The notes under the pieces are model-generated. The model was not told the DNA's origin, made no database searches, and saw only the letters and a program-made list of their open reading frames with translations. DNA of 64,000 bases from Endomychus coccineus. Taxonomy: Eukaryota; Arthropoda; Insecta; Coleoptera; Endomychidae. The DNA lies in NCBI GenBank assembly GCA_958510875.1, contig OY294068.1:178901411-178965410 (forward strand), written 5' to 3'. Positions within the stretch are counted from its first letter, which is position 1, and each line of letters starts with the position of its first letter. Positions 43,470 to 56,070 of this stretch are shown piece after piece. A program made the position numbers and the translations under genes.

Positions 43470-43475
43470 GAGTTT

Positions 43476-44960
43476 AGTAGATGAACTGGACTACCACGGC
43501 ACCAGGATATCCGGTCTCCACTTCCGGTCTAGCTGTCGATGTGCATCCGGTGCATGAGCTCGTCCTTATCAGTTTTGAAAGGATGTAGGTGATAAGGATT
43601 TTATTTTATTTGTAAAGAGTATACAGGGTGTGTTCAAAGAGTGTGTCACATGTACAGAGTCACGTGACTAACACATGGCAGCATGGCGGCCCTAAGGTCC
43701 AACTGTCATGGCGACCATAAGGTCCAGCTGTCATGGTGGGCATAAGAACCAGCTGTCATGGCGACCATAAGGACCAGCTGTCATGGCGACCATAAGGACC
43801 AGCTGTCATGGCAACCATAAGGACCAGCTGTCATGGCGACCATAAGGTCCAGCTGTCATGGTGGGCATAAGGACCAGCTGTCATGGCGACCATAAGGACC
43901 AGCTGTCATGGCGACCATAAGGACCAGCTGTCATGGCGATCATAAGGACCAGCTGTCATGGCGACCATAAGGACCAGCTGTCATGGTGACCATAAGGTCC
44001 AGCTGTCATGGCGACCATAAGGTCCAGCTGTCATGGCGAGCATGAGGTACAGCTGTCATGGCGAGCATGAGGTACAGCTGTCATGGCTACCATAAGGTCC
44101 AGCTGTCATGGCGACCATAAGGTACAGCTGTCATGGCGAACCCAAGGTACAGACTGCTTCGTGGAGGGGGCTCCGCCACCTCTAGGAAGCAATCTGTACC
44201 TTTGGTCCAAAGGTACAGGCTGCTTCATGGAGATGTCACCACCACGTGACAGCTGTCATCGAAGGTACAGAATGCTTCGTGGAGATGTCGCCACCACGTG
44301 ACAGCTGTCATGGCGACCCTTGGGTACAGGCTGCTTCATGGAGATGTCGCCACCATATGACAGCTGTCATGGTGAACCAAAGGTACAGGTTGCTTCGTGT
44401 AGGTGTCACCAACACGTGACAGCTGTCATGGTGAGCTAAAGGTACAGAATGCTTCGTGGAGATGTCGCCACCCCGTGACAGCTGTCATGGCGACCCTTGG
44501 GTACAGGCTGCTTCATGGAGATGTCGCCACCATATGACAGCTGTCATGGTGAACCAAAGGTACAGGTTGCTTCGTGTAGGTGTCACCAACACGTGACAGC
44601 TGTCATGGTGAGCTAAAGGTACAGGCTGCTTCGTGTAGGTGTCACGTGACAGATGTCATGGCGGACCGAAGGTACAGGCTGCTTCGTGTAGGTGTCACCA
44701 CCACGTGACAAAGACTGCTTTGTCATTGTTTCAATCCGGCGACCATAGTTTACGAACGATGATGACGTCACTGCTTCGAACCGATGACAGTAACTGATTC
44801 AATCCGGTGACCATAGTTCACGAACGATGATGACGTCACTGCCTCAAGCCAATGACAGTAACTGATTCAACCCGGCGACCATAGTTTACGAACGATGATG
44901 ACGTCATCATCGTTCACGAACTATGATGGTCAGATGAGGAATGAAATGCGAGTAATAATA
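43476..44960 (+). repeat. Polinton left terminal inverted repeat
   Basis: It has four zones from outside in. First are 200 bp of unique terminal sequence. About 18 copies of a 25-bp unit containing CAGCTGTCATGG follow (about 43690-44140). Then come 8-9 longer units with GGTACAG..TGCTTCRTG (about 44140-44715), seven of which carry the full palindrome TGACAGCTGTCA. Last are three ~63-bp units with ACGATGATGACGTCA (about 44735-44905). It matches the right TIR base for base over most of its length, with rare substitutions. No gene lies inside; the repeat-encoded open frame is an artefact. Confidence 0.95.
44880..44925. promoter_or_regulatory. 46-bp imperfect palindrome centred on TGACGTCA, left TIR inner edge
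   Basis: It runs from CATAGTT to AACTATG with ACGATGATGACGTCATCATCGT in the middle, the arms differing at three positions. It sits at the internal end of the TIR, facing the genes. TGACGTCA is a full CRE/ATF-type site. A promoter or replication role is inference only. Confidence 0.6.
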
Positions 44961-45195
44961 ATGATACTCTATGTGTAAATGTGAATAGTTGGAAGTTATG
45001 ATAAAGATATCCAGTAAGTTTGTAAATGTGTCATTATGCATATATCTTTTGAAGAATACACACGTATACTTAGAAAATTTGTGGAGAAAGTTCATGAACT
45101 AAGAAGAGACTTGAATTTTTACGAACATAAAATAAAAGTTATAAGACTGTTGAATACATTTACAAGTGCAAAAAGTGAAGATAATGATGGGAGTG

Positions 45196-45687
45196 GGGAT
45201 GTTAAAAACAAATTTCGTGATTCTAACCACAATTCTGAATGGTATTCTATACGCGAACGTTCCCCAACACGTTGAGCGCATTTATATTTGTCTGAAGGAT
45301 GTTGCAACCGATGGTGGTGGGGGGTGTAACCGTACCGAATGGATTCCGATGAATTTTAGAAAAATCAACGATAATCAATTAGAGGTATTCGCATTCAACA
45401 TTCCTCAAGATAATCGTACCACCATACATTATAAACTTAAACTTTTATTCTTTGATCGGAGTGAGGGAGATATGGCTGAATGGCAATTGCTCCAACAATC
45501 ATCATGTTTACCACATGTCATACAAAAGACAATATCAACACCATCCACACGTACATCATCCTCACTAGACGAAGAAATTTCTAAAATTTTCGCAATTTTG
45601 TATGCAATTTTATCTTCTTTATCAGTACTAATGTTGAAAATGTTTGTTAAATATGTAAAGAAGGCTATTTACCATGTAAATAAATGA
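45196..45687 (+). CDS. Polinton membrane glycoprotein, unknown family
   Basis: This is the only plus-strand gene of the element. Its frame is open from ATG 45166 to TAA 45687. A better start may be one of the next Met codons (about 45184-45199), which place a hydrophobic signal peptide, MLKTNFVILTTILNGILYA, at the N-terminus. The mature part has three cysteines, two N-glycosylation sequons (CNRT, DNRT) and a Thr/Ser-rich stretch. It ends with a TM segment, IFAILYAILSSLSVLMLKMF, and a short basic tail. The layout is that of a small type I membrane protein of about 165 residues. The family was not recognised. Being convergent with the MSV199 gene (45-bp gap), it must have its own promoter near the left TIR. 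Confidence 0.72.
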   Translation, partial: GMLKTNFVILTTILNGILYANVPQHVERIYICLKDVATDGGGGCNRTEWIPMNFRKINDNQLEVFAFNIPQDNRTTIHYKLKLLFFDRSEGDMAEWQLLQQSSCLPHVIQKTISTPSTRTSSSLDEEISKIFAILYAILSSLSVLMLKMFVKYVKKAIYHVNK

Positions 45688-45732
45688 TTGTATGAAGATA
45701 TAAGTGTTTTAATAAAACAAAAGGAATGATAA

Positions 45733-46730
45733 TTATAATAATATATTGACATTATCATTTGCTAGTTCATAAGCTTTATTTTTGTGATTGATAACACATT
45801 CTATCAATGACTCGATGTTGATATCACTAATCAATTGTTCACCCCCCTCTTCTTCTGCGGCATGAATAATATTTCCTCTTGCATACCATTTCAAATCGCG
45901 GCGGAAATTCTGTTTCACTTCGTTACCAATATCGATAGCATGAGATATGTTAGACCATTTACGTATTAATCGCATTCCCCGATTTTGTAATTTTTTGTCG
46001 GCATCACGCCAACCATCCTCCTGTCGACGCATTAGGTACCATTCTGGTCTCATATCATTCGATGTTCGATATAATCCTAAATAATATATATTATATAAAT
46101 TTTATTATAAAAAACAAAGTAATTACCTAAATTTCGTCTCTTTCCAAAATTTATAGGAGGTGGAACAATATTTGGTGCAATGTTATTCCGTAAGGTGATA
46201 ACATTCATTTGAATTTGTTGAGATAAGCGTTGAGATCGTTCTTTCGCAAGACATTCACGTTCCTCAGCTCTTTGACGTTCTTGTTGTTCATAGAATTTCT
46301 CGTACTCACAATATTTCATCATAATAAATTTCATTAACGAAAACAGTTCACGTAACTCGATGACTTTAGGAGTTCGCATTTGCATCAATAATGATTCGAA
46401 ATCAATAGCATCTAGAACATAATATTTCTTTCGTGCATCAGTCTTATCACAAATTTCTAAATGGTGTATATGCGGGTTTTTCCTCAACAATCTTGTTATA
46501 ACACCCTTTTTAGCATGATATTTTTTGCCGCGATAACCTAACCAATCCAATAGATCTTCATTCATCAGAACGCGTTGGTTTAGTTGAATATTCCAAAATA
46601 AATAGTTTCTTTCATCGTTTCTTATATCGATCCCAAATTTTAGACACACTTCATTAACTGTTGACTTAATAAAATTGTTGGTGGACCATGTAGCCACATT
46701 TGAATCACGAACGCACGCTGCTAAGTTCAT
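45733..46730 (-). CDS. MSV199/KilA-type protein, two exons
   Basis: Exon 1 is 46730-46127 and exon 2 is 46076-45733. They are separated by a 50-bp AT-rich intron with donor GTAATT (46126) and acceptor TTATTTAG (ending 46077). The junction keeps the frame and gives a 315-residue protein. Residues about 20-150 resemble the MSV199 domain known from entomopoxviruses, iridoviruses and relatives; the core is YYVLDAIDFESLLMQMRTPK. A coiled-coil, Glu/Arg-rich segment and a C-terminal part like DUF3627 (WYLMRRQEDGW-type start) follow. Such proteins are thought to bind DNA, but their role is unproven. The short intron shows nuclear transcription. The domain assignment is from recall. Confidence 0.72.
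46077..46126 (-). other. 50-bp spliceosomal intron in the MSV199 gene
   Basis: It has GT...AG borders, over 80% A+T, and phase 1 (splits a Gly codon). Without splicing the frame ends within the intron after an AT-rich Ile/Tyr tail. Confidence 0.75.
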
Positions 46731-47066
46731 TTTTATAACTGAACATTTTCTGAAATGATTCTCTCTTACATACGTGAGAACGTGAACGTGAATAGTGAGG
46801 GTGGGGGGTAACTCTCCGTTTCGATATCATTGCAAACGTTGATAACTGACTGATAACGTCACTAGTTGTTTCAATTTGTTTCATTTCCAGCAACCGACTA
46901 CCATAGTTTACAAACTATGATCGTCGGATGTTTACATCACCACCTACCGTTTGAGAAATAAAATATCAAATATAATAATAATAATAACATTTATTGGGAA
47001 AGATACATTTTGATAGTACATCATTTAGAACATAAATTATAACATTATGATTCATCACCTGGTTCT
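46731..47066. promoter_or_regulatory. Intergenic control region with palindrome CATAGTTTACAAACTATG
   Basis: It lies between the MSV199 start and the capsid gene stop. A palindrome at 46902-46919 extends, with two mismatches per arm, to CCGAC...GTCGG (46894-46927). It closely matches the repeated CCGGCGACCATAGTTTACGA motif of the TIR inner zone. It lies about 170 bp upstream of the MSV199 start, consistent with a shared regulator site. An AT-rich (AAT)n tract is present at about 46970-46990. Confidence 0.5.
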
Positions 47067-48278
47067 TCACACCAAATTCCGAACTGATCCTGTAATCGGA
47101 GAATACTCCATTATACGATCGTTAATGATGATGCAATAAGCCCTGGTGTTTTTGGGGAAATTCAGGAAACTTCCCATCTCTAGTTTGACGTCAACTGTTG
47201 ATGACTTTATAGCATCGTTTTGTTTTGAACAGTCAATCACAAAAATTGCTCTATTCTTGAATGCTATATAATCTAACATGGGTTCGCTTATTATTTTATT
47301 TGAAAATGATTTCTGGAAATCATAGTACATCTGGTATGCTTCCACGTATTGCTGGTCGGTGAAATTCAATTTCATTGCTTCATATGGATAACACTCTGAA
47401 TTCAAGTATAATTTAACATTTAGCAAGTTTATATTATCGAAATATGCACTGTGCTTAACAGGATTATTTTTTCGATCAGTTTGGAAAGCTAGAATCACAT
47501 ATCTGGGTCGTTCCAAATTCATTGAAGTTTTAACAGCCCAAATGTCGCGAGTGCTCTCCTTCATCAACGGATTTTCATGCAGATCCCAACTACGGAATGG
47601 AATCAAAATAGGCTTCTCAGCACTCAAATTCCCCAACATTTGAAATTTAACTTGATCACTTGGAAACACATGTCGCACTTTCAATGCTATCGTCTTCACA
47701 TTTATTTTAGCCGTTTTCGTGCCTGTGCTATTAGTATAGCAATCGTTATCGGTTCGAGACCTTATCAAGCGCAGCTTATGTTTTCCACCCAAAACTTTGT
47801 TATAGTCAATGAATAGGCCTAGTAGAAAATTCAACGGTATCCATAAATTGATTTTATTATTGTAGACTGAACTCAATACATCCTTAAATGACCATCCAGA
47901 AATAGCTAGAGGTATAGATTCATGTTTGGCATATGTTAGATAAGCTCTGATGGTGCTGACAATACCAGGATCACGTACTTTGTCTATCTCTTTTCCATTC
48001 AATTCATAACTGATATATTCGAAGAGAAACGCTCCGAAATTATTCGTTAGTTTACATTCACCATCACCACTTGCTTCTGGCTGGAATTCTGCCTCGATGA
48101 ATAAAGCAGACGAGGCCAAATCTACCAACACATCTTGTTGATTGATTAATATCTCAATTTCATCGCTGTTGCCAAAAGATGTTGTGTGGGGATAGTAGGT
48201 ATGAGTTTCTTCTCGGATGATGTCTTCATTGAAGTTTGGCTCGTTGAATATTTGAAGTTTTTCCGACATTGTAACCAA
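47067..48278 (-). CDS. Polinton major capsid protein (double jelly-roll)
   Basis: This 403-residue protein is encoded by an intact frame. The block FEYISYELNGKEIDKVRDPG, then STIRAYLTY near residues 85-115, is characteristic of Maverick/adintovirus hexon-like capsid proteins, as is the largely beta-strand composition and the NLWIPLNFLLGLF segment. By family, it forms the trimeric capsomer of an icosahedral particle. It lies after the minor capsid gene on the same strand (207-bp spacer). The start chosen is the first Met; a second Met, MSEKLQIF, three codons on is also likely. No damage was seen. Confidence 0.88.
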   Translation of the reverse strand: MVTMSEKLQIFNEPNFNEDIIREETHTYYPHTTSFGNSDEIEILINQQDVLVDLASSALFIEAEFQPEASGDGECKLTNNFGAFLFEYISYELNGKEIDKVRDPGIVSTIRAYLTYAKHESIPLAISGWSFKDVLSSVYNNKINLWIPLNFLLGLFIDYNKVLGGKHKLRLIRSRTDNDCYTNSTGTKTAKINVKTIALKVRHVFPSDQVKFQMLGNLSAEKPILIPFRSWDLHENPLMKESTRDIWAVKTSMNLERPRYVILAFQTDRKNNPVKHSAYFDNINLLNVKLYLNSECYPYEAMKLNFTDQQYVEAYQMYYDFQKSFSNKIISEPMLDYIAFKNRAIFVIDCSKQNDAIKSSTVDVKLEMGSFLNFPKNTRAYCIIINDRIMEYSPITGSVRNLV

Positions 48279-48485
48279 GGGACTTCAAAAAATTGATATT
48301 TTCCAATGATAGTGATGCAGAAGCAACCTTCTCCCTCGAGCTCGTTGTAGATAATGACTGATGACCACTATGGAGATGTCTTTTATTGCTGAAATCCAAA
48401 CCCATGTTCTCAAGTGATGGCTACTGCAACCTTCTCAGTTGAATTCCTTTCATATAATGAGTGGTGGTGAGTATTGGATTATTAT

Positions 48486-49253
48486 TTATTGTTGTGAGGT
48501 ATAATCCCTAACGATCTTTTTCAATTCCAATCGTATAATAATTTCTTCTCCACGAAAATTTACCGGTTTCCAATTCTGATCTAAAATATTCAGCGTGATG
48601 TTATCGAAGGACGTCTTGCTGATGACCGGTAGATAAATAAGATTCTTCGGCTCTATATCAATGGAAAACCCAGGTGGTACAAGAGGTGAGAACTCATATA
48701 TCGTATGAGCTATCTTATTGTTATAATATGCTCCTGCGGTTAAGTTACACTCAACACGTATTGTTTGAACTTTGATTATGTTTATAGGTCGATCAGATAC
48801 GTGTAGTTCGCGAGATGTCAATTTCTTTTTGCTGAATCCCAACAGTTCGCTTATACTATCTTTAGGAATAAAATTCACTTCAAAATCACTCTTCAGCTCT
48901 GCGTGTAGAGTGTTGTTGTTAGATTTTATTGATAATTTTCGGTCACGTTCTTCTTGCTTCACTCCTATCCCACAAACTGCACTTTGTATGAAATCCTTGA
49001 TGTCTGTCAACTCGTAGGACCCCGTAGGTATAGTTACTACTTCTTCCTCACCCTTCACATTTTTATAATAAAATTTATTAAAACCTTCTTCAATGTTCGG
49101 AATGCTATTGTACGTATGCAAGCCAACAAGTGCGATAGAATAATATGAATGAGGATCTAGTTCTATAGGTGGGTGGAAATCTACAGATAAGCGGGAGCTC
49201 TTACCCGTGATAGTGAACGTCTGAGACATGATTGATGCAAACTTTACCAACAA
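48486..49253 (-). CDS. Polinton minor capsid / penton-like protein
   Basis: This 255-residue protein is encoded by an intact frame. The N-terminal pattern (TITGKSSRLSVDFHPPIELD then YSIALVGLHTYNSIPNI) is the recurring signature of Maverick penton-like proteins with a single jelly-roll. YYNNKIAHTIYEFSP and PPGFSIDIEPKNLIYLPV are also family-like. By family, it occupies fivefold vertices. It lies 27 bp downstream of the protease stop, on the same strand. The first Met (49253) may be followed by use of the internal Met at residue 9 (MSQTFTI). Confidence 0.87.
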   Translation of the reverse strand: MLVKFASIMSQTFTITGKSSRLSVDFHPPIELDPHSYYSIALVGLHTYNSIPNIEEGFNKFYYKNVKGEEEVVTIPTGSYELTDIKDFIQSAVCGIGVKQEERDRKLSIKSNNNTLHAELKSDFEVNFIPKDSISELLGFSKKKLTSRELHVSDRPINIIKVQTIRVECNLTAGAYYNNKIAHTIYEFSPLVPPGFSIDIEPKNLIYLPVISKTSFDNITLNILDQNWKPVNFRGEEIIIRLELKKIVRDYTSQQ

Positions 49254-49280
49254 TCTATTTATATACTAATAAATTCAGGG

Positions 49281-49661
49281 TTAGTCGAGCACAACTGAAG
49301 AGTTAGAGAGGAAATCTAAACATAACTGACCACAATTATAAGTGTTATATTGTTGAAAATTATCGTGATTGAATAATATCTTACACTTTTTGAAATAATC
49401 CACTAGTTCGCGAGGGGGGCGTAAATTGCCAAAACTATCATAATATAAAACTGTATCACCGACTTTATTAAACCCAACCCAGTGAGTGCCTCCATTGTCC
49501 GAGCTATCTAAATTAACTATTCCACGCTCGTTTTTCCATGATCCGTTGGATGGTAGTTCATCACGCATAAATACTCCTCTAAAATGGGGAATTTTCAGAG
49601 CTTTTGCTAGTTTTCGTAGATCGAGATCGGTCAGAGGTCTTCTGGGTAGGTTTACTGACAG
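49281..49661 (-). CDS. Adenain-like cysteine protease, probably expressed by -1 frameshift
   Basis: This is a maturation protease of the adenovirus protease clan (C5-like). Counting from the first in-frame ATG (49568), His29 in GGTHWVGF, Asp44 in YYDSFGN, Gln72/73 and Cys79 in YNTYNCGQLC form the expected active site. The conserved N-terminal block (PLTDLDL, then KIPHFRGVFM) lies upstream of that ATG, in 31 codons that have no Met. The frame is closed by a stop at 49676-49674. Those codons begin exactly where a -1 shift at A AAA AAC (49667-49661) would place the ribosome. The likely product is therefore a C-terminal extension of the PLA2 protein, later cleaved. Starting at the ATG would lose part of the fold. 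Confidence 0.85.
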   Translation of the reverse strand: MSVNLPRRPLTDLDLRKLAKALKIPHFRGVFMRDELPSNGSWKNERGIVNLDSSDNGGTHWVGFNKVGDTVLYYDSFGNLRPPRELVDYFKKCKILFNHDNFQQYNTYNCGQLCLDFLSNSSVVLD

Positions 49662-49667
49662 TTTTTT
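49652..49667 (-). promoter_or_regulatory. Candidate -1 ribosomal frameshift site A AAA AAC
   Basis: In the PLA2 frame the codons are CCA AAA AAC TGT CAG TAA. The heptamer A AAA AAC fits the X XXY YYZ rule and is a well-known eukaryotic slippery site used by retroviruses. The -1 frame entered at 49661 is the protease frame and stays open to 49281. Only weak stem potential (CAGA/TCTG) is visible just downstream, so the stimulator is unclear. Confidence 0.72.
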
Positions 49668-50434
49668 GGATGTTTATTTAAATATAGACCAAGACCTTTG
49701 CGATACTTTTTCAAATATAGACCAGATCCTTGTTTCCCCAAAGCTATAGCTTCCATTGTTTTATTATGTTTTTCCGTTTCCTCCAAGGTTTTCCGAGCTG
49801 CTTTGCTGTCGTTGACGGCCTTAGCGATGCCTGCACCACCCCCCGCCAATGCTCCAGCAGCTGATAAGCCGGAAAACAGAGGTATTAAAAATTGTAGAAA
49901 TCCTCCAGTCTTTGGAATAGGAATTACTCTTGGTAACCGAACATTTTTCCGACCACCCGCTTTTTTGAATTGTTTTCGTGCAACTTTCAACGCTGTTTGG
50001 GATGTTTTCTTCAGATTGGATGAGTCAAACTTATTCTTCATAACTTTTCTCACCCCATCGACAATTGCACTTCCGAACCCAACCTTCTTTCTCATACCCA
50101 TTCCCAATTTCCTCTTTGCCTTCATAATTTTATTTACACCGAAAGCGGCAATCCTTTCTCCAAATTTTGTGTCTTTAGATTTGACACGTTGCCAAGCAGC
50201 GTTCTCTAATATTTTATCCGCCTCGTGACGTCCTTCCAAACTAGCGTTTCGCAGATATGAAATATCGTGTTGGCGGCAAGCTTTATCGAGTGGATTGATA
50301 CCTGAATCTCCTCTTCTCAACCGTTCTTCTAATTTTGTACCGGGACCACAGAATTGATAACCAGGAATATGAAGTTCAAACGGGAGCTTGTTTATAAGCG
50401 TATTGAGAACACCTTCTCCTACGTACGCTTCCAT
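49652..50434 (-). CDS. Virion protein with parvovirus-like phospholipase A2 domain
   Basis: This 260-residue protein is encoded by an intact frame. Residues 24-60 form a PLA2 domain like that of parvovirus VP1 unique regions, with a calcium loop (Y26-x-x-CGPGT), then NPLD and the catalytic pair His56-Asp57 in RQHDISY. A very basic middle section (Lys/Arg-rich, about 95-170) resembles a DNA-binding core protein. Residues about 176-206 are hydrophobic and Gly/Ala-rich (FLQFLIPLFSGLSAAGALAG), as in Maverick pX/pVI-like proteins. By family it would act on endosomal membranes during particle entry. Its 3' end carries the slippery heptamer two codons before the TAA and overlaps the protease frame. 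Confidence 0.85.
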   Translation of the reverse strand: MEAYVGEGVLNTLINKLPFELHIPGYQFCGPGTKLEERLRRGDSGINPLDKACRQHDISYLRNASLEGRHEADKILENAAWQRVKSKDTKFGERIAAFGVNKIMKAKRKLGMGMRKKVGFGSAIVDGVRKVMKNKFDSSNLKKTSQTALKVARKQFKKAGGRKNVRLPRVIPIPKTGGFLQFLIPLFSGLSAAGALAGGGAGIAKAVNDSKAARKTLEETEKHNKTMEAIALGKQGSGLYLKKYRKGLGLYLNKHPKNCQ

Positions 50435-50714
50435 ACAGACTGATGAAAATTCAAGATTGCACCGTTATTTAACGAGGGGAGGGAGAAAGATCAAAGATCT
50501 CAAAATAATATTTTTTACTAATTTCAAAATTTTCTCAATACAAAAGACTTAAGTATAATCTTAACAATATATGTTTCAAATATTATAATCTTCACTCTTG
50601 ATTCACCCTCATATTCACGGAATTTTTGTTCTATTATAATAACCATACCCTCGAGTCAATAATATTCCAGCTATTTGTTTGTTCCTAATAATCTCCAAAT
50701 GGTCAATGATGGAT
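50435..50714. other. 280-bp intergenic gap (PLA2 gene 5' side, integrase 3' side)
   Basis: It is AT-rich and no gene was seen. It probably holds the promoter for the PLA2-protease unit and a polyadenylation region for integrase. Confidence 0.45.
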
Positions 50715-51638
50715 TCATTGAACGAGATCCGAATTATTGATCCAACTGTTGTGATTATTATCTAGACCCAACCATTTCACATACTGTTGACCCCTCCTCT
50801 TTCGTAATATTTTTTCGACTAAATACACATCGGGTTGTTTTGTTTTCTGTAATTCTTCCTCGTAGAAACAGCCGCTGATTGGTGCGTTGGTCATATCTTC
50901 TAGTAGATATGTGACCGGGTTGGTAATTTTTACTTTGATGATTTTAAATAATTCCGTACTCCAATTGGGCGTAAATCCCTTCTCAAAAATATGTTCAGCC
51001 TTACTTATTCGTACCACATCTCCTACGTTGTATTTGTGAGGCAGAGCTAACTTGATGTGTGAGTAGGATCGCTTCAATATCTCGCTCTCAATCTGTTTCG
51101 TCACTTTTATTGGAGCCATATTTATAGTACTATGTTTACGTTTATTATATTTTTCTGTGGTTTCTTCAAGTATATCAAGCCATTTGTATTTCCCGCTGAG
51201 ACTGAAATGTTTGTAGAGCGATTCCTTTAACGTTCGAATGACACGTTCAGCAATGGCTGCTTTTTTCACACTATACGTATTATAATGATTGATATTATGT
51301 TTCTTCATTAGATTGTTAAAGTGTTTATTGAAGAATTCTTTTCCCTGATCGCTTTGCAGATTCCTAGGCTTACGATGTCCTTCTAGCAATATAGAACTGA
51401 CCGCTTTCCGAACTTCTTCGGCTGATTTCGTTTTGAGCGGGCGTGTCCATAGAAATTTCGAGAAACAATCGATCATGATCAAAATGTATTTGAATCCTCT
51501 ATTTTCACGAGCGTAATTACCCATTTCTGCCAGATCCATTTGCCACAAATCATCCAAACCTTTTATGATCGTTCTGCGTCGTTTGAAATTCTTCCTACTC
51601 GGCTTATGAAGCTCATGCACAACTTGTTCTCTACTCAT
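50715..51638 (-). CDS. Polinton integrase (retroviral-type DDE) with chromodomain
   Basis: This 307-residue protein is encoded by an intact frame. An LHKP motif (residues 10-13) and basic FKRRR stretch precede the catalytic core. The core carries Asp35 (LWQMDLAEM), Asp97 (NLQSDQGKEF) and Glu131 (AAIAERVIRTLK). Residues about 205-250 form the small SH3-like part (YNVGDVVRISK), and 270-305 a chromodomain (YLVEKILRKRRGQQYVKWLG). By family it cuts and joins the element ends, giving 6-bp duplications. The start is the first Met; a few upstream codons remain open without Met. It lies 17 bp after the fibre-like gene, which is in another frame. Confidence 0.94.
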   Translation of the reverse strand: MSREQVVHELHKPSRKNFKRRRTIIKGLDDLWQMDLAEMGNYARENRGFKYILIMIDCFSKFLWTRPLKTKSAEEVRKAVSSILLEGHRKPRNLQSDQGKEFFNKHFNNLMKKHNINHYNTYSVKKAAIAERVIRTLKESLYKHFSLSGKYKWLDILEETTEKYNKRKHSTINMAPIKVTKQIESEILKRSYSHIKLALPHKYNVGDVVRISKAEHIFEKGFTPNWSTELFKIIKVKITNPVTYLLEDMTNAPISGCFYEEELQKTKQPDVYLVEKILRKRRGQQYVKWLGLDNNHNSWINNSDLVQ

Positions 51639-51655
51639 CTTATCAATGTGGAAAT

Positions 51656-52309
51656 CTAGTGTAGAATTAATTTTTTGGGTATATTCACAGGATTTGGAGA
51701 TATACGTTTCACAGAGCCCTGCTTTGTTGTTGTGGATGATGAGGGTCTCTTCTTAGAAGGTTCCACAGATGTCATCCGTCGTTCTAACGCCTCCACTTTA
51801 CTAGTAATGTCATTTAGACGCATGTTCACACTGTTAAATGTGTTATTGATCTCTTTCAATTCATTTCTGTTTTCCCTCACACTATCACTGATTGTTTTAT
51901 ACTCTGATTTTATATAGATCCCCATTCCATTATATTTATTCTGAATGTCCATCAGATGTTTATCAATGTTGAGAATAACCTTGTCATTCGTTAAGTTATG
52001 TTCATCCAGATCCTTGTTGATATCTTTGATCAAATTATCAACCCTAACATTGAAGGTATCTTTAAGACTGGTTTCCGTTTTCAGATTCAGTTTGTGTGTT
52101 AATTTATCAACATATACTTTATTTGCAACATCTCCATCATCATTCGGTGATTTTACGTTGCACAATCTACGATTTTCCATATCATAACTTCCATCGCTCG
52201 TTAGGAATAATCCTTGTCCGTGAACTTGTTTGAAATTATTATTAAATACATTTGTATCATATATCCACATGGAAGAGGAGGCTCTGCCAAACTTATCCAT
52301 TGAAACCAT
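51656..52309 (-). CDS. Fibre-like coiled-coil protein
   Basis: This 217-residue protein is encoded by an intact frame. Residues 31-68 contain GLFLTSDGSYDMENRRLCNV then DDGDVANKVYVD. The latter is a motif seen at the start of shaft or coiled-coil regions in many tail-fibre and spike proteins. Residues about 70-180 are heptad-rich and predicted coiled coil (IKDINKDLDEHNL, VNMRLNDITSKVEALERRM). The C-terminus is basic and Ser/Thr/Pro-rich. This suggests a trimeric fibre or core scaffold, which is inference. Its start overlaps the stop of the DUF8207-type gene by 17 bp in another frame. Confidence 0.72.
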   Translation of the reverse strand: MVSMDKFGRASSSMWIYDTNVFNNNFKQVHGQGLFLTSDGSYDMENRRLCNVKSPNDDGDVANKVYVDKLTHKLNLKTETSLKDTFNVRVDNLIKDINKDLDEHNLTNDKVILNIDKHLMDIQNKYNGMGIYIKSEYKTISDSVRENRNELKEINNTFNSVNMRLNDITSKVEALERRMTSVEPSKKRPSSSTTTKQGSVKRISPNPVNIPKKLILH

Positions 52310-53357
52310 CTTTATAACTGAGATGAATTTGTCTTACACCTGGTTTTTGTTCAATTACCCCTGCCTCTATCAATTCTTCTATTATAGAGATTATCTCATT
52401 GTGATGATTATGGTTACCTGCATGCGAGGATGCAACAAGAAGTCTCAGTCTATCCACAATTTCGTTAACGTCATCCCAATAAACATATTCGATAGGTTTC
52501 TCGTTATATTCAAGCATATCATTTTTGATATATGCACTTCCAGTGTATGTTTTGGCTCTGGGTCTTTTCATGGAATTAATCAAAGGTTTCAGTACATTTT
52601 TGTATTTTACAATGTTTCTTATTCGATCAGCTGGATCGTTATTACGCCTATAAGCACTAGTCATTTCCATCATTTGACTGTAATTTTTCCCATCTTCCAC
52701 AGTGTAAGTATCAGGTAGAACATCTCTGTAAAATATCAAATTATACAGTCCTGTGGTACCCTTGAACGGAGTACCCTTGATAATTATATTACTCTCACTA
52801 TCAATTTCTATAGGTTGATTATCCATGAACCATTTGTCTAAAGTTGAATTATATTGCAATCCCATTCTATCATCGTATTTCTTGACATCATCATCCAATA
52901 GGAATCCTTCCAAGTAATAACGTGCTAATGTGGGGTATTGTTGCAGAAACTCCTCTGTAGCCTCTGCATTATCTTTCTTATGTTTTCTGAATTCTTCACG
53001 AATCTGATCGATAGTAGGTTCGAGGGTAAACACATCCTCCTCAGTATTTTGGGGGTTATATACGAACTCTTCCCCTTCAGTTACAATATTTGGGATTGGT
53101 ATGTTCTCCATTTGTGTTGCTGTAGAAACAATACTTTCAGGTTTAACCAACGAATTTTGTTTGATTATTTCAGCATTTTTCGCAATTTCCTCCAGAGGTT
53201 TATATACATTCCTGAACATATTATCTAGAATCTCATCATTTTCAGCTTTACCCAATTTCACAGCCATATATTTTTTCCTCACAACGTTTGCTAACTCCCA
53301 AATTTTTTTCTTCAATTGTTGTTTTTCTTTAAGCGTGTTACTCACACCCACGTCCAT
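52293..53357 (-). CDS. DUF8207-type Polinton-associated protein
   Basis: This 354-residue protein is encoded by an intact frame. Its C-terminal half carries KGTPFKGTTGLYNLIF and YVYWDDVNEIVDRLRLLVAS, then HNEIISIIEELIEAGVI. These are hallmarks of a protein found in very many arthropod Maverick copies and catalogued as DUF8207 (name from recall). The N-terminal 80 residues are Lys/Glu-rich with coiled-coil potential. The function is unknown. The gene lies 42 bp after the ATPase stop, and the conserved linkage suggests a role in virion assembly or genome packaging. Confidence 0.82.
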   Translation of the reverse strand: MDVGVSNTLKEKQQLKKKIWELANVVRKKYMAVKLGKAENDEILDNMFRNVYKPLEEIAKNAEIIKQNSLVKPESIVSTATQMENIPIPNIVTEGEEFVYNPQNTEEDVFTLEPTIDQIREEFRKHKKDNAEATEEFLQQYPTLARYYLEGFLLDDDVKKYDDRMGLQYNSTLDKWFMDNQPIEIDSESNIIIKGTPFKGTTGLYNLIFYRDVLPDTYTVEDGKNYSQMMEMTSAYRRNNDPADRIRNIVKYKNVLKPLINSMKRPRAKTYTGSAYIKNDMLEYNEKPIEYVYWDDVNEIVDRLRLLVASSHAGNHNHHNEIISIIEELIEAGVIEQKPGVRQIHLSYKDGFNG

Positions 53358-53399
53358 GCTGAGCGGGTTGTCTATTTCAAATGAAAGTATATATACATG

Positions 53400-54125
53400 T
53401 TAGATGTATATATAACTATCAAAACCTTTGCGATAACGTCCTTTGTTCATATCACAGTCTTTGTTTATCATAAGGAATCCATATTTATCTTTCCAACATA
53501 CGCTACATATCTCTTTGAATTTTTCGAGTGACATGTCGGTACTTATATGATCGGTGAATATATGTTTCAAATTGAGCTCATCCTGTTTGAAAATAATCAA
53601 GCAATTGGCATTGTCGCGCAATCCATGTTTTGGACATTTAGCAAAAGACTGGCAAAGATAGAAACTATCAATTGAGTTGTGTCTCCCTCTTGAAAAATAA
53701 GCACGAATTTTCTCCTGTTTCTCAAACATCACGTCATCGAATATTATGATTGAATTAGGCCTCGCTTCTGTGGGGTCTATGACCTCATCACTTTCGGTAC
53801 AAGGAAAATATCCAAGCCCCTCAATTTTCTTCAATGTCTCCTTTAGTAACTGGTATTTTGGTTGGTGTGAAGACTTTGAATATATGTACACGTTTTCAAA
53901 TTTCAGACCGTTTGCATCTAACAATAGAGATAACATCACATTTGTTTTCCCACAATTACTTGGAACACAGATTATTGTTCGTAGAGTATTAGGCAGCAAA
54001 GAGCTGTGACGTTGTGGTTGTTCAACATTCTCATTGCTTGACCCTAAGTTCATAATACTCAACGAGTCTTTTTGCTTAACAATCTTCATCATGCCTGAAG
54101 GCGAATCGAAATCATACTGGAACAT
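53400..54125 (-). CDS. Genome-packaging ATPase (FtsK/HerA-type)
   Basis: This 241-residue protein is encoded by an intact frame. Walker A is VPSNCGKT at 54-61, Walker B is SIIIFDDV at 125-132, and an arginine/glutamine-rich segment follows (YFSRGRHNSIDSFYLCQSF). This is the packaging ATPase of Polintons, adintoviruses and virophages, which pumps DNA into the capsid. It is the first gene of the minus-strand block, 450 bp inside the right TIR. No inactivating change was seen. Confidence 0.92.
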   Translation of the reverse strand: MFQYDFDSPSGMMKIVKQKDSLSIMNLGSSNENVEQPQRHSSLLPNTLRTIICVPSNCGKTNVMLSLLLDANGLKFENVYIYSKSSHQPKYQLLKETLKKIEGLGYFPCTESDEVIDPTEARPNSIIIFDDVMFEKQEKIRAYFSRGRHNSIDSFYLCQSFAKCPKHGLRDNANCLIIFKQDELNLKHIFTDHISTDMSLEKFKEICSVCWKDKYGFLMINKDCDMNKGRYRKGFDSYIYI

Positions 54126-54248
54126 ATGTTAATAAGCATTTGTTTATATACTAGATGATGATGTTATATTGTGTATGTCTGATCGCGCGGTTAGGTGCTT
54201 CTACGGTTCTGTCAAAATCAGGTATCAAATACATGTTAAATAGGTATG

Positions 54249-54500
54249 AATGCTGGAACACGTGTCTGAATGTTGAAACACGTGTCTGAATGTTGAAACA
54301 CGTGTCTGAAACACGTGTCTGAATGCTGAAACACGTGTCTGAATGTTGAAACACGTGTCTGAAACACGTGTCTGAATGCTGAAACACGTGTCTGAATGTT
54401 GAAACACGTGTCTGAATGTTGAAACACGTGTCTGAATGTTGAAACACGTGTCTGAATGTTGAAACACGTGTCTGAATGTTGAAACACTTGTCTGAATATT
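54249..54500. repeat. 20-bp minisatellite rich in CACGTG
   Basis: The unit is GAAACACGTGTCTGAATGTT. Twelve units carry an intact CACGTG, two units are shortened to about 12 bp, and end copies are degenerate. It is read through in all three frames on the minus strand, which produces repetitive open frames that are not genes. It lies between the right TIR and the ATPase gene, the probable promoter zone of the minus-strand block. Confidence 0.93.
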
Positions 54501-54569
54501 AAAGCATGTGTTGAATCATGCGAAAAAACATGTGTATGAATGTACTACAATCATTATGATTATTCACAT

Positions 54570-56064
54570 TTTATTCCTCATTAGCCCATCATAGTTCGTG
54601 AACGATGATGACGTCATCATCGTTCGTAAACTATGGTCGCCGGGTTGAATCAGTTACTGTCATTGGCTTGAAGCAGTGACGTCATCATCGTTCGTGAACT
54701 ATGGTCGCCGGATTGAATCAGTTACTGTCATCGGTTCGAAGCAGTGACGTCATCATCGTTCGTAAACTATGGTCGCCGGATTGAAACAATGACAAAGCAG
54801 TCTTTGTCACGTGGTGGTGACACCTACACGAAGCAGCCTGTACCTTCGGTCCGCCATGACATCTGTCACGTGACACCTACACGAAGCAGCCTGTACCTTT
54901 AGCTCACCATGACAGCTGTCACGTGTTGGTGACACCTACACGAAGCAACCTGTACCTTTGGTTCACCATGACAGCTGTCATATGGTGACGACATCTCCAT
55001 GAAGCAGCCTGTACCCAAGGGTCGCCATGACAGCTGTCACGGGGTGGCGACATCTCCACGAAGCATTCTGTACCTTTAGCTCACCATGACAGCTGTCACG
55101 TGTTGGTGACACCTACACGAAGCAACCTGTACCTTTGGTTCACCATGACAGCTGTCATATGGTGGCGACATCTCCATGAAGCAGCCTGTACCCAAGGGTC
55201 GCCATGACAGCTGTCACGTGGTGGCGACATCTCTACGAAGCATTCTGTACCTTCGATGACAGCTGTCACGTGGTGGTGACATCTCCCTGAAGCAGCCTGT
55301 ACCTTTGGACCAAAGGTACAGATTGCTTCCTAGAGGTGGCGGAGCCCCCTCCACGAAGCAGTCTGTACCTTGGGTTCGCCATGACAGCTGTACCTTATGG
55401 TCGCCATGACAGCTGGACCTTATGGTAGCCATGACAGCTGTACCTCATGCTCGCCATGACAGCTGTACCTCATGCTCGCCATGACAGCTGGACCTTATGG
55501 TCGCCATGACAGCTGGACCTTATGGTCACCATGACAGCTGGTCCTTATGGTCACCATGACAGCTGGTCCTTATGGTCGCCATGACAGCTGGTCCTTATGA
55601 TCGCCATGACAGCTGGTCCTTATGGTCGCCATGACAGCTGGTCCTTATGGTCGCCATGACAGCTGGTCCTTATGCCCACCATGACAGCTGGACCTTATGG
55701 TCGCCATGACAGCTGGTCCTTATGGTCGCCATGACAGCTGGTCCTTATGGTCGCCATGACAGCTGGTCCTTATGGTCGCCATGACAGCTGGTCCTTATGC
55801 CCACCATGACAGCTGGACCTTATGGTCGCCATGACAGTTGGACCTTAGGGCCGCCATGCTGCCATGTGTTAGTCACGTGACTCTGTACATGTGACACACT
55901 TTTTGAACACACCCTGTATACTCTTTACAAATAAAATAAAATCCTTATCACCTACATCCTTTCAAAACTGATAAGGACGAGCTCATGCACCGGATGTACA
56001 TCGACAGCTAGACCGGAAGTGGAGACCGGATATCCTGGTGCCGTGGTAGTCCAGTTCATCTACT
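54570..56064 (-). repeat. Polinton right terminal inverted repeat
   Basis: This is the inverted copy of 43476-44960 with the same order of subrepeats. The inner edge is near TTCCTCATTAGCCCATC, after which the arms diverge. Confidence 0.95.
54590..54635. promoter_or_regulatory. 46-bp imperfect palindrome centred on TGACGTCA, right TIR inner edge
   Basis: This is the mirror of 44880-44925. It lies upstream of the minus-strand gene block that starts with the packaging ATPase (start at 54125), separated from it by the CACGTG minisatellite. Confidence 0.6.
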
Positions 56065-56070
56065 GAATTT

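Follow-up and report, generated by a model that had tools for sequence, protein, structure and literature searches.

Within a Polinton-type element of the beetle Endomychus coccineus, a protease gene (PRO) overlaps the 3′ end of a gene for a PLA2 minor virion protein and appears to lack a start of its own, which raises the question of how the protease comes to be translated. We analysed the window (the whole 64,000-nucleotide stretch of DNA that contains the element) together with further copies in the same genome, database homologues and two distant loci. From the sequence comparisons we assign a probability of roughly 85% to programmed −1 frameshifting, which would yield a minor PLA2–PRO fusion.

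The host element

The longest inverted-repeat pairs of the element lie at 43473–44965 and 54550–56067, the longest single pair being 1284 nt (97%); offset matches suggest short tandem units inside the repeats. Genes on the minus strand follow one another in the order ATPase-like, integrase, PLA2, PRO, penton-like and DJR major capsid protein, the label 'penton-like' referring to gene position only. This is a Polinton/Maverick set (Eupolintoviridae type), with an rve integrase with chromodomain, a DJR capsid protein, a packaging ATPase, an adenain-like PRO and TIRs, the matches to the chromodomain (20.4 bits) and the A32 ATPase (21.0 bits) being below the Pfam cut-offs. A full-length protein-primed DNA polymerase B was not found between 36000 and 64000, where no stop-to-stop ORF exceeds 405 codons, and we call this copy a PolB-less Polinton-type element. 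Beyond the capsid gene, at 46077–46826 of the window (minus strand), is a gene with an MSV199 domain (Pfam PF10553).

Table 1 Features of the host element and its PLA2–PRO junction (window positions), and the junctions of four families in the same genome
Feature	Position	Strand	Junction sequence	Description
Polinton-type host element	43473..56067	.		Encodes major capsid, integrase, ATPase-like, PRO and PLA2 proteins; an inverted repeat lies close to each end
PLA2 minor virion protein gene, 260 aa	49652..50434	−		Pfam PF08398, E 1.7e-10; ends KHPKNCQ stop
Slippery heptamer A AAA AAC	49661..49667	−		Zero frame is Lys-Asn of PLA2; direct sequence
PLA2/PRO overlap, 22 nt	49652..49673	−		Heptamer, two codons and PLA2 stop inside
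Adenain-like PRO open frame, −1 relative to PLA2	49281..49673	−		Entered from heptamer at 49661
Heptamer last base to first PRO ATG	49566..49661	−		31 ATG-less codons, then ATG
Family A junction			CCA AAA AAC TGT CAG TAA or near variant	PLA2 tail KNCQ
Family B junction			CAA AAA AAC TTC CAA TAG	PLA2 tail KNFQ
Family C junction			CAA AAA AAC TAC CAT TAA	PLA2 tail KNYH
Family D junction			TCA ACA AAC TAC CGA TAA	Non-canonical A_ACA_AAC, 3/3 loci

The PLA2–PRO junction and the missing start

Read directly from the minus strand of the window, the 3′ end of PLA2 is CCA AAA AAC TGT CAG TAA, exact to the base with the codons and heptamer of the original prediction. A_AAA_AAC has the X_XXY_YYZ form of a canonical eukaryotic −1 site in the right phase (a passage of a review, PMC5009743, ranks it among the most shift-prone heptamers on mammalian ribosomes); it is the sole A6C of the PLA2 ORF, in slippery phase and 6 nt ahead of the stop. 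From the heptamer on, 126 codons of the −1 frame are open before the stop at 49281; counted along the stop-to-stop ORF, the first ATG (49568–49566) is codon 36, which places it 31 codons past the heptamer. The sequence thus agrees with the predicted open length and lack of ATG in the first 31 codons, and the residues said to be family-conserved in that segment are present as LPxRxLT and FRGVF. The segment also encodes helix 1 and strand 1 of the PRO model. Upstream, the PRO frame is closed by a TAA two codons 5′ of the heptamer; such a close 5′ stop, which was part of the same prediction, is found in family A and in the distant locus L001, but in families B and C the stop is farther upstream. 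By sequence, therefore, PRO is an overlapping −1 downstream frame without its own start. Among ten tabulated ORFs, the first ATG of PRO falls inside its conserved domain; the first ATG comes later only in the integrase ORF (codon 39), whose rve match begins at residue 68.

The relationship of PRO to adenain is seen both by profile and by predicted fold. The AlphaFold model has a mean pLDDT of 90.5 (94–96 over residues 11–40) and contains a helix at 16–25 and a strand at 31–36, of which Met36 is the final residue. Foldseek searches with this model gave adenovirus proteinases as the best matches (E 6e-08), and the adenain profile matches PRO at E 9.3e-06, beginning at profile position 15. The Pfam C5 score of the window PRO is 14.6 bits, below the 21.3-bit cut-off; at E 0.05, C5 matches 19 of 36 PRO members. 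Fold and profile together predict the adenain (peptidase C5) fold for the window PRO, and the residues upstream of its first Met belong by prediction to that fold. A start at Met36 would lose the helix and the strand, as both are upstream in the model, and since predicted fold and profile begin upstream of Met36, translation should begin upstream as well, where the −1 frame of family A offers no AUG.

Copies and families in the same genome

Searching the 906 Mb genome with PRO gave 150 scored matches, all at 99–100% identity, from 3198 first-look candidates, so that near-identical PRO copies are numerous even though the copy in the window is PolB-less. A second search, for which the query was the protease of a relative, likewise yielded 150 scored matches, which included other families and partly the same places. 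We read 77 distinct loci, namely 8 and 30 that were returned with the searches and 39 picked from the table of the second search (L063, a repeat of L004, was dropped); the 39 were chosen partly for unusual open-frame lengths, and the 77 are thus a non-random sample. In this sample, an in-phase A_AAA_AAC is present in 61 of 77 loci, and in 48 of the 53 with both ORFs intact (PLA2 of at least 250 codons and PRO of 120 to 299, stop to stop), the other five being without it. Since many of the copies may be dead, little can be concluded from conservation inside one family; in this sequence argument, it is the comparison between families that carries the weight.

Families A, B and C share NNA-AAA-AAC, a stop 6 nt on and PRO in the −1 frame (Table 1). 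In one representative of each, the PLA2 ORF contains a single A6C, in phase and at the same place; the chance of NNA-AAA-AAC there in all three is approximately 3e-4 (from codon counts, with the families taken as independent), and AAC is the rarer Asn codon in the three ORFs (4/11, 2/8 and 5/17). The families are otherwise diverged: between the heptamer and the first Met of A, their amino acids differ in 34 of 87 aligned codon pairs, and over the last 90 PLA2 codons in 101 of 259 codon pairs. Past the heptamer, the differences at PRO positions 1, 2 and 3 number 30, 16 and 47 (87 codon pairs), and their concentration at third positions is as expected of translated PRO sequence. Two expectations of the original prediction, that the heptamer, the −1 relation and the missing PRO start would recur in relatives and that third positions would vary, are thus borne out in three diverged families of one genome. 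Site and layout are conserved in relatives with the exception of family D; DNA from another species is represented by L001 only, other-species support for the site being mostly protein sequences.

The families differ in the margins of the overlap. The PRO 5′ stop lies 76 nt ahead of the PLA2 stop in the printed family B loci with an undamaged junction, and 103–109 nt ahead in family C (34 nt in L013). Family C has no Met ahead of FRGVF (9/9 loci), and family B has one five residues ahead of it (13/13 loci), always past the LPxR motif, with a second Met eleven residues ahead of FRGVF in L048. Related proteases with a proper ATG had been named as evidence against frameshifting: none precedes the LPxR motif in families A to C, but the PRO of the distant locus L002 has its own ATG, and in some related proteases, such as P0048 and P0055, an ATG may lie shortly before the core. 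Copies that lose the heptamer and retain the overlap had been named likewise, and family D (L025, L028 and L055) keeps the −1 overlap behind its altered site, but the PLA2 ORF is broken in all three loci. The position of the split is similar in L028 and L055, as though a defective form had propagated.

In-frame PLA2–PRO fusions occur at 3 of the 77 loci, all in family A (L043, L044 and L045), and arise by single-base differences at the slip site—one has an extra A (L043, 7 A versus 6) and two identical ones an extra C. Two of the three share one contig and the same fused protein. These fusions are the only open frames of more than 300 codons among the 150 rows of the second-search table, and no such frame occurs among the 150 scored matches of the PRO search.

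Database homologues

Among the best 120 of 1587 PLA2 homologues, Lys-Asn falls within the last 8 residues of 111, where approximately 4 would be expected from its frequency elsewhere, and in 109 of the 111 only 0–2 residues follow before the end of PLA2. The preceding residue varies (Ser, Pro, Gln, Thr, Lys, Ala, Val, Arg or Leu), and an NNA codon exists for it in 111/111, whereas 23% of the last-40 residues are without one; the homologues are interrelated, and no probability is attached to either count. We read this Lys-Asn/NNA signature as a nucleotide-level mark seen through proteins. In the nine listed homologues in which Lys-Asn is absent from the last 8 residues, KKK is found in the last 30 of seven.

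A corresponding trace is visible on the protease side. In the best 120 of 245 PRO homologues, 118 have the anchor motif, among them 27 that extend 6 or more residues beyond the core on its upstream side. Lys-Lys, the expected −1 reading of such a site, occurs in this upstream part in 22 of the 27, as opposed to 51 of 633 17-residue windows of the PRO body. Four of the best 120 are in-frame fusions (P0001, P0010, P0028 and P0043). The many listed proteases starting with MKLP or MPTG were considered as a disproof of the missing start; wherever a family was read as DNA, this column holds a codon for Val, Ile or Leu, and P0021 starts there with V. We suspect that these starts reflect bacterial-style gene calling on GTG or TTG. 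Named database relatives, such as Trichogramma, Lasius and Pyrocoelia, point to an insect host. The Polinton-like P0141 and P0163 are filed under Rickettsia endosymbionts of two insects, and L002 under a Balneolales MAG; their presence in bacterial assemblies is probably host or viral contamination.

Distant loci

Viral contigs were scanned with PRO, wider PRO and PLA2 alignments, the L001 protease and two degenerate patterns, and only L001, an IMG/VR contig, was useful; phage records gave no match to PLA2. The L001 PRO is 42% identical in its best segment. Its upstream protein has no match to Pfam PLA2 (E up to 1) or to the PLA2 profile (E up to 10), contains a hydrophobic stretch (by eye), has the C terminus TKKKNPEF and matched one database protein, at 100% identity. 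A run of 11 A and C in L001 includes A_AAA_AAC, with PRO in the −1 frame, a stop directly 5′ and no Met ahead of VFM. A scan of genome contigs for other-species DNA yielded L002, in which the gene upstream of PRO is on the opposite strand; PRO there starts at an ATG of its own, which fits a locus where it cannot be fed from an upstream gene.

RNA structure downstream of the site

Nested folds downstream of the site did not stand out from shuffles in families A, B and D (z −0.3 to 0.7 at 60, 90 and 130 nt). At the same lengths, z was 0.1, 0.0 and −1.5 for family C and −3.0, −0.9 and −0.4 for L001, the signal of the latter fading with length. A crude scan of A, B, C and L001 for simple H-type pseudoknots gave candidates in C and L001 only, and these were equalled by 42/60 and 16/60 shuffles, respectively. 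The predicted minor fusion of gag-pro style is well supported by sequence comparison, but no convincing stem-loop or simple pseudoknot was found downstream; frameshift efficiency may consequently be low, or something other than an RNA structure, for example the stop codon close by, may act as the stimulator.

Alternative explanations

The heptamer is an A run, and RNA polymerase could slip on it, leaving some mRNAs with an altered number of A that fuse the frames; the 11 A of L001 and the fused frame of L043, with 7 A against the 6 of its family, point in this direction. We nevertheless consider polymerase slippage unlikely—families A to C have a run of no more than 6 to 7 A, and NNA-AAA-AAC is what tandem tRNA slippage demands, the NNA mark being present in database homologues too. 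Still less probable is that PRO begins at a non-AUG codon in the overlap or by reinitiation after the PLA2 stop. That stop is near, and family A has a CTG directly past the heptamer, but the codon reads CTG in A, CTT in B and CTA in both C and D, so that no good near-cognate start is conserved, and neither model needs the Lys-Asn or NNA signature. Splicing of an upstream AUG exon into the PRO frame, with which the AG dinucleotides that families A, B and C have within a few bases 5′ of their LP codons would be compatible, is very improbable: these AGs vary in position, are without a polypyrimidine tract and are absent in D (by eye), the heptamer signature is left unexplained, and a vertebrate Maverick survey, where it describes intact elements, calls their ORFs intronless (PMC8097293).

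It is barely conceivable that PRO is a separate gene with its own transcript and a start at Met36. Some of the listed homologues begin at the equivalent Met (P0084 and P0103) or just before it (P0011, P0064 and P0116), but such a start would deprive a fold predicted with confidence of its helix 1 and strand 1, and would also remove the conserved LPxRxLT and FRGVF. Just as implausible is an ancestral plain in-frame PLA2–PRO fusion that an indel has broken in this copy or family. Such fusions do exist, but at only 3 of 77 loci read, of which two share a contig and encode an identical fused protein, and the −1 layout recurs in diverged families and L001. The Lys-Asn/NNA signature, together with the junctions and counts of the loci, led us to reject an in-frame ancestor broken by decay.

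Proposed mechanism and significance

In the programmed −1 frameshifting that we favour, most ribosomes on the PLA2 mRNA would stop two codons past the heptamer and release the PLA2 virion protein. A minority would slip back one base on A_AAA_AAC, the Lys and Asn tRNAs re-pairing in the −1 frame, and would run on into PRO to give the PLA2–PRO fusion. Such slippage is presumably rare and would set a low protease dose; the minor virion protein would carry the fused protease into particles, where PRO might later cut itself out of the fusion. In adenovirus, the C-terminal peptide of pVI activates adenain, and, more speculatively, the C-terminal half of PLA2 may act like pVI. With less confidence than for the frameshift itself, we think it fairly likely that a gag-pro-like −1 frameshift is the general maturation-protease route of PLA2-bearing insect Polintons, conserved as the Lys-Asn-stop tail, and that the fusion ties a pVI-like protein to the protease to package and activate it. 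The layout may predate the PLA2 domain, since it also occurs in a relative that does not have this domain.

Programmed −1 frameshifting is textbook knowledge for RNA viruses and retroelements and, to our knowledge, little described for eukaryotic DNA viruses and DNA transposons. If it is conserved in Polintons, a DNA virus lineage would have adopted the retroviral solution for dosing a protease. It would also account for the inconsistent gene starts in automatic annotation and be in keeping with the idea that Polintons form particles. The proposal is directly testable in a published insect cell line that is reported to transcribe Mavericks with PLA2 and PRO ORFs (PMC5803895).

Comparison with known systems

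Maverick 1 and 2 of Spodoptera frugiperda also encode a parvovirus-like PLA2 protein and an adenain-like PRO and are reported to be transcribed in Sf cells; CAP (PLA2) and PRO are given as separate ORFs, and the sections that describe them make no mention of a CAP–PRO overlap, start codon or frameshift (PMC5803895). Among the top-ranked matches to literature that joins Polintons or adintoviruses with programmed frameshifting, we found only a 2024 preprint (PMC11071296); in the available parts of that literature, the adintovirus founding paper aside, no statement of a PLA2–PRO frameshift was found. Where 'frameshift' appears in the accessible text of PMC12567637, PMC8097293, PMC10120064, PMC12721341 and PMC11089739, it means decay, method settings or another virus. 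According to the relevant section of the preprint, KnotInFrame output suggests that some adintovirus Penton ORFs have slippery sites close to their 3′ end; a similar relationship is seen for potential Hexon–Adenain ('Hexain') fusions (PMC11071296). This idea is Polinton-related and likewise links adenain to a virion protein by a possible −1 frameshift; unlike in our element, the partner is the major capsid protein rather than PLA2, and the idea is given one sentence, without conservation evidence in that section (PMC11071296). The original suggestion that such an arrangement may be undescribed for Polintons consequently holds for PLA2 in the literature covered, but a −1 fusion of adenain to Hexon has been floated.

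Adenovirus adenain has, by prediction, the same protease fold as PRO. It has its own start and a separate cofactor peptide (pVI), to which the PLA2 protein neighbouring PRO may be analogous.

The PLA2–PRO junction would, by analogy, work like retroviral gag-pro without being a member of that class, which is defined by Gag, an aspartic protease and reverse transcriptase; the partners here are a PLA2 protein and an adenain-type protease. Some retroviruses use A_AAA_AAC, and retroviral gag-pro frameshifting gives a small protease dose. As in gag-pro of MMTV, SRV-1 and HTLV, a structural virion protein occupies frame 0 and a protease frame −1 at a shift-prone heptamer (for gag-pro and the heptamer ranking, PMC5009743). 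Here, in contrast, no stimulatory structure was found, the protease is an adenain-type cysteine protease rather than an aspartic one, and the junction lies in a DNA element in which a phospholipase/minor virion protein replaces Gag.
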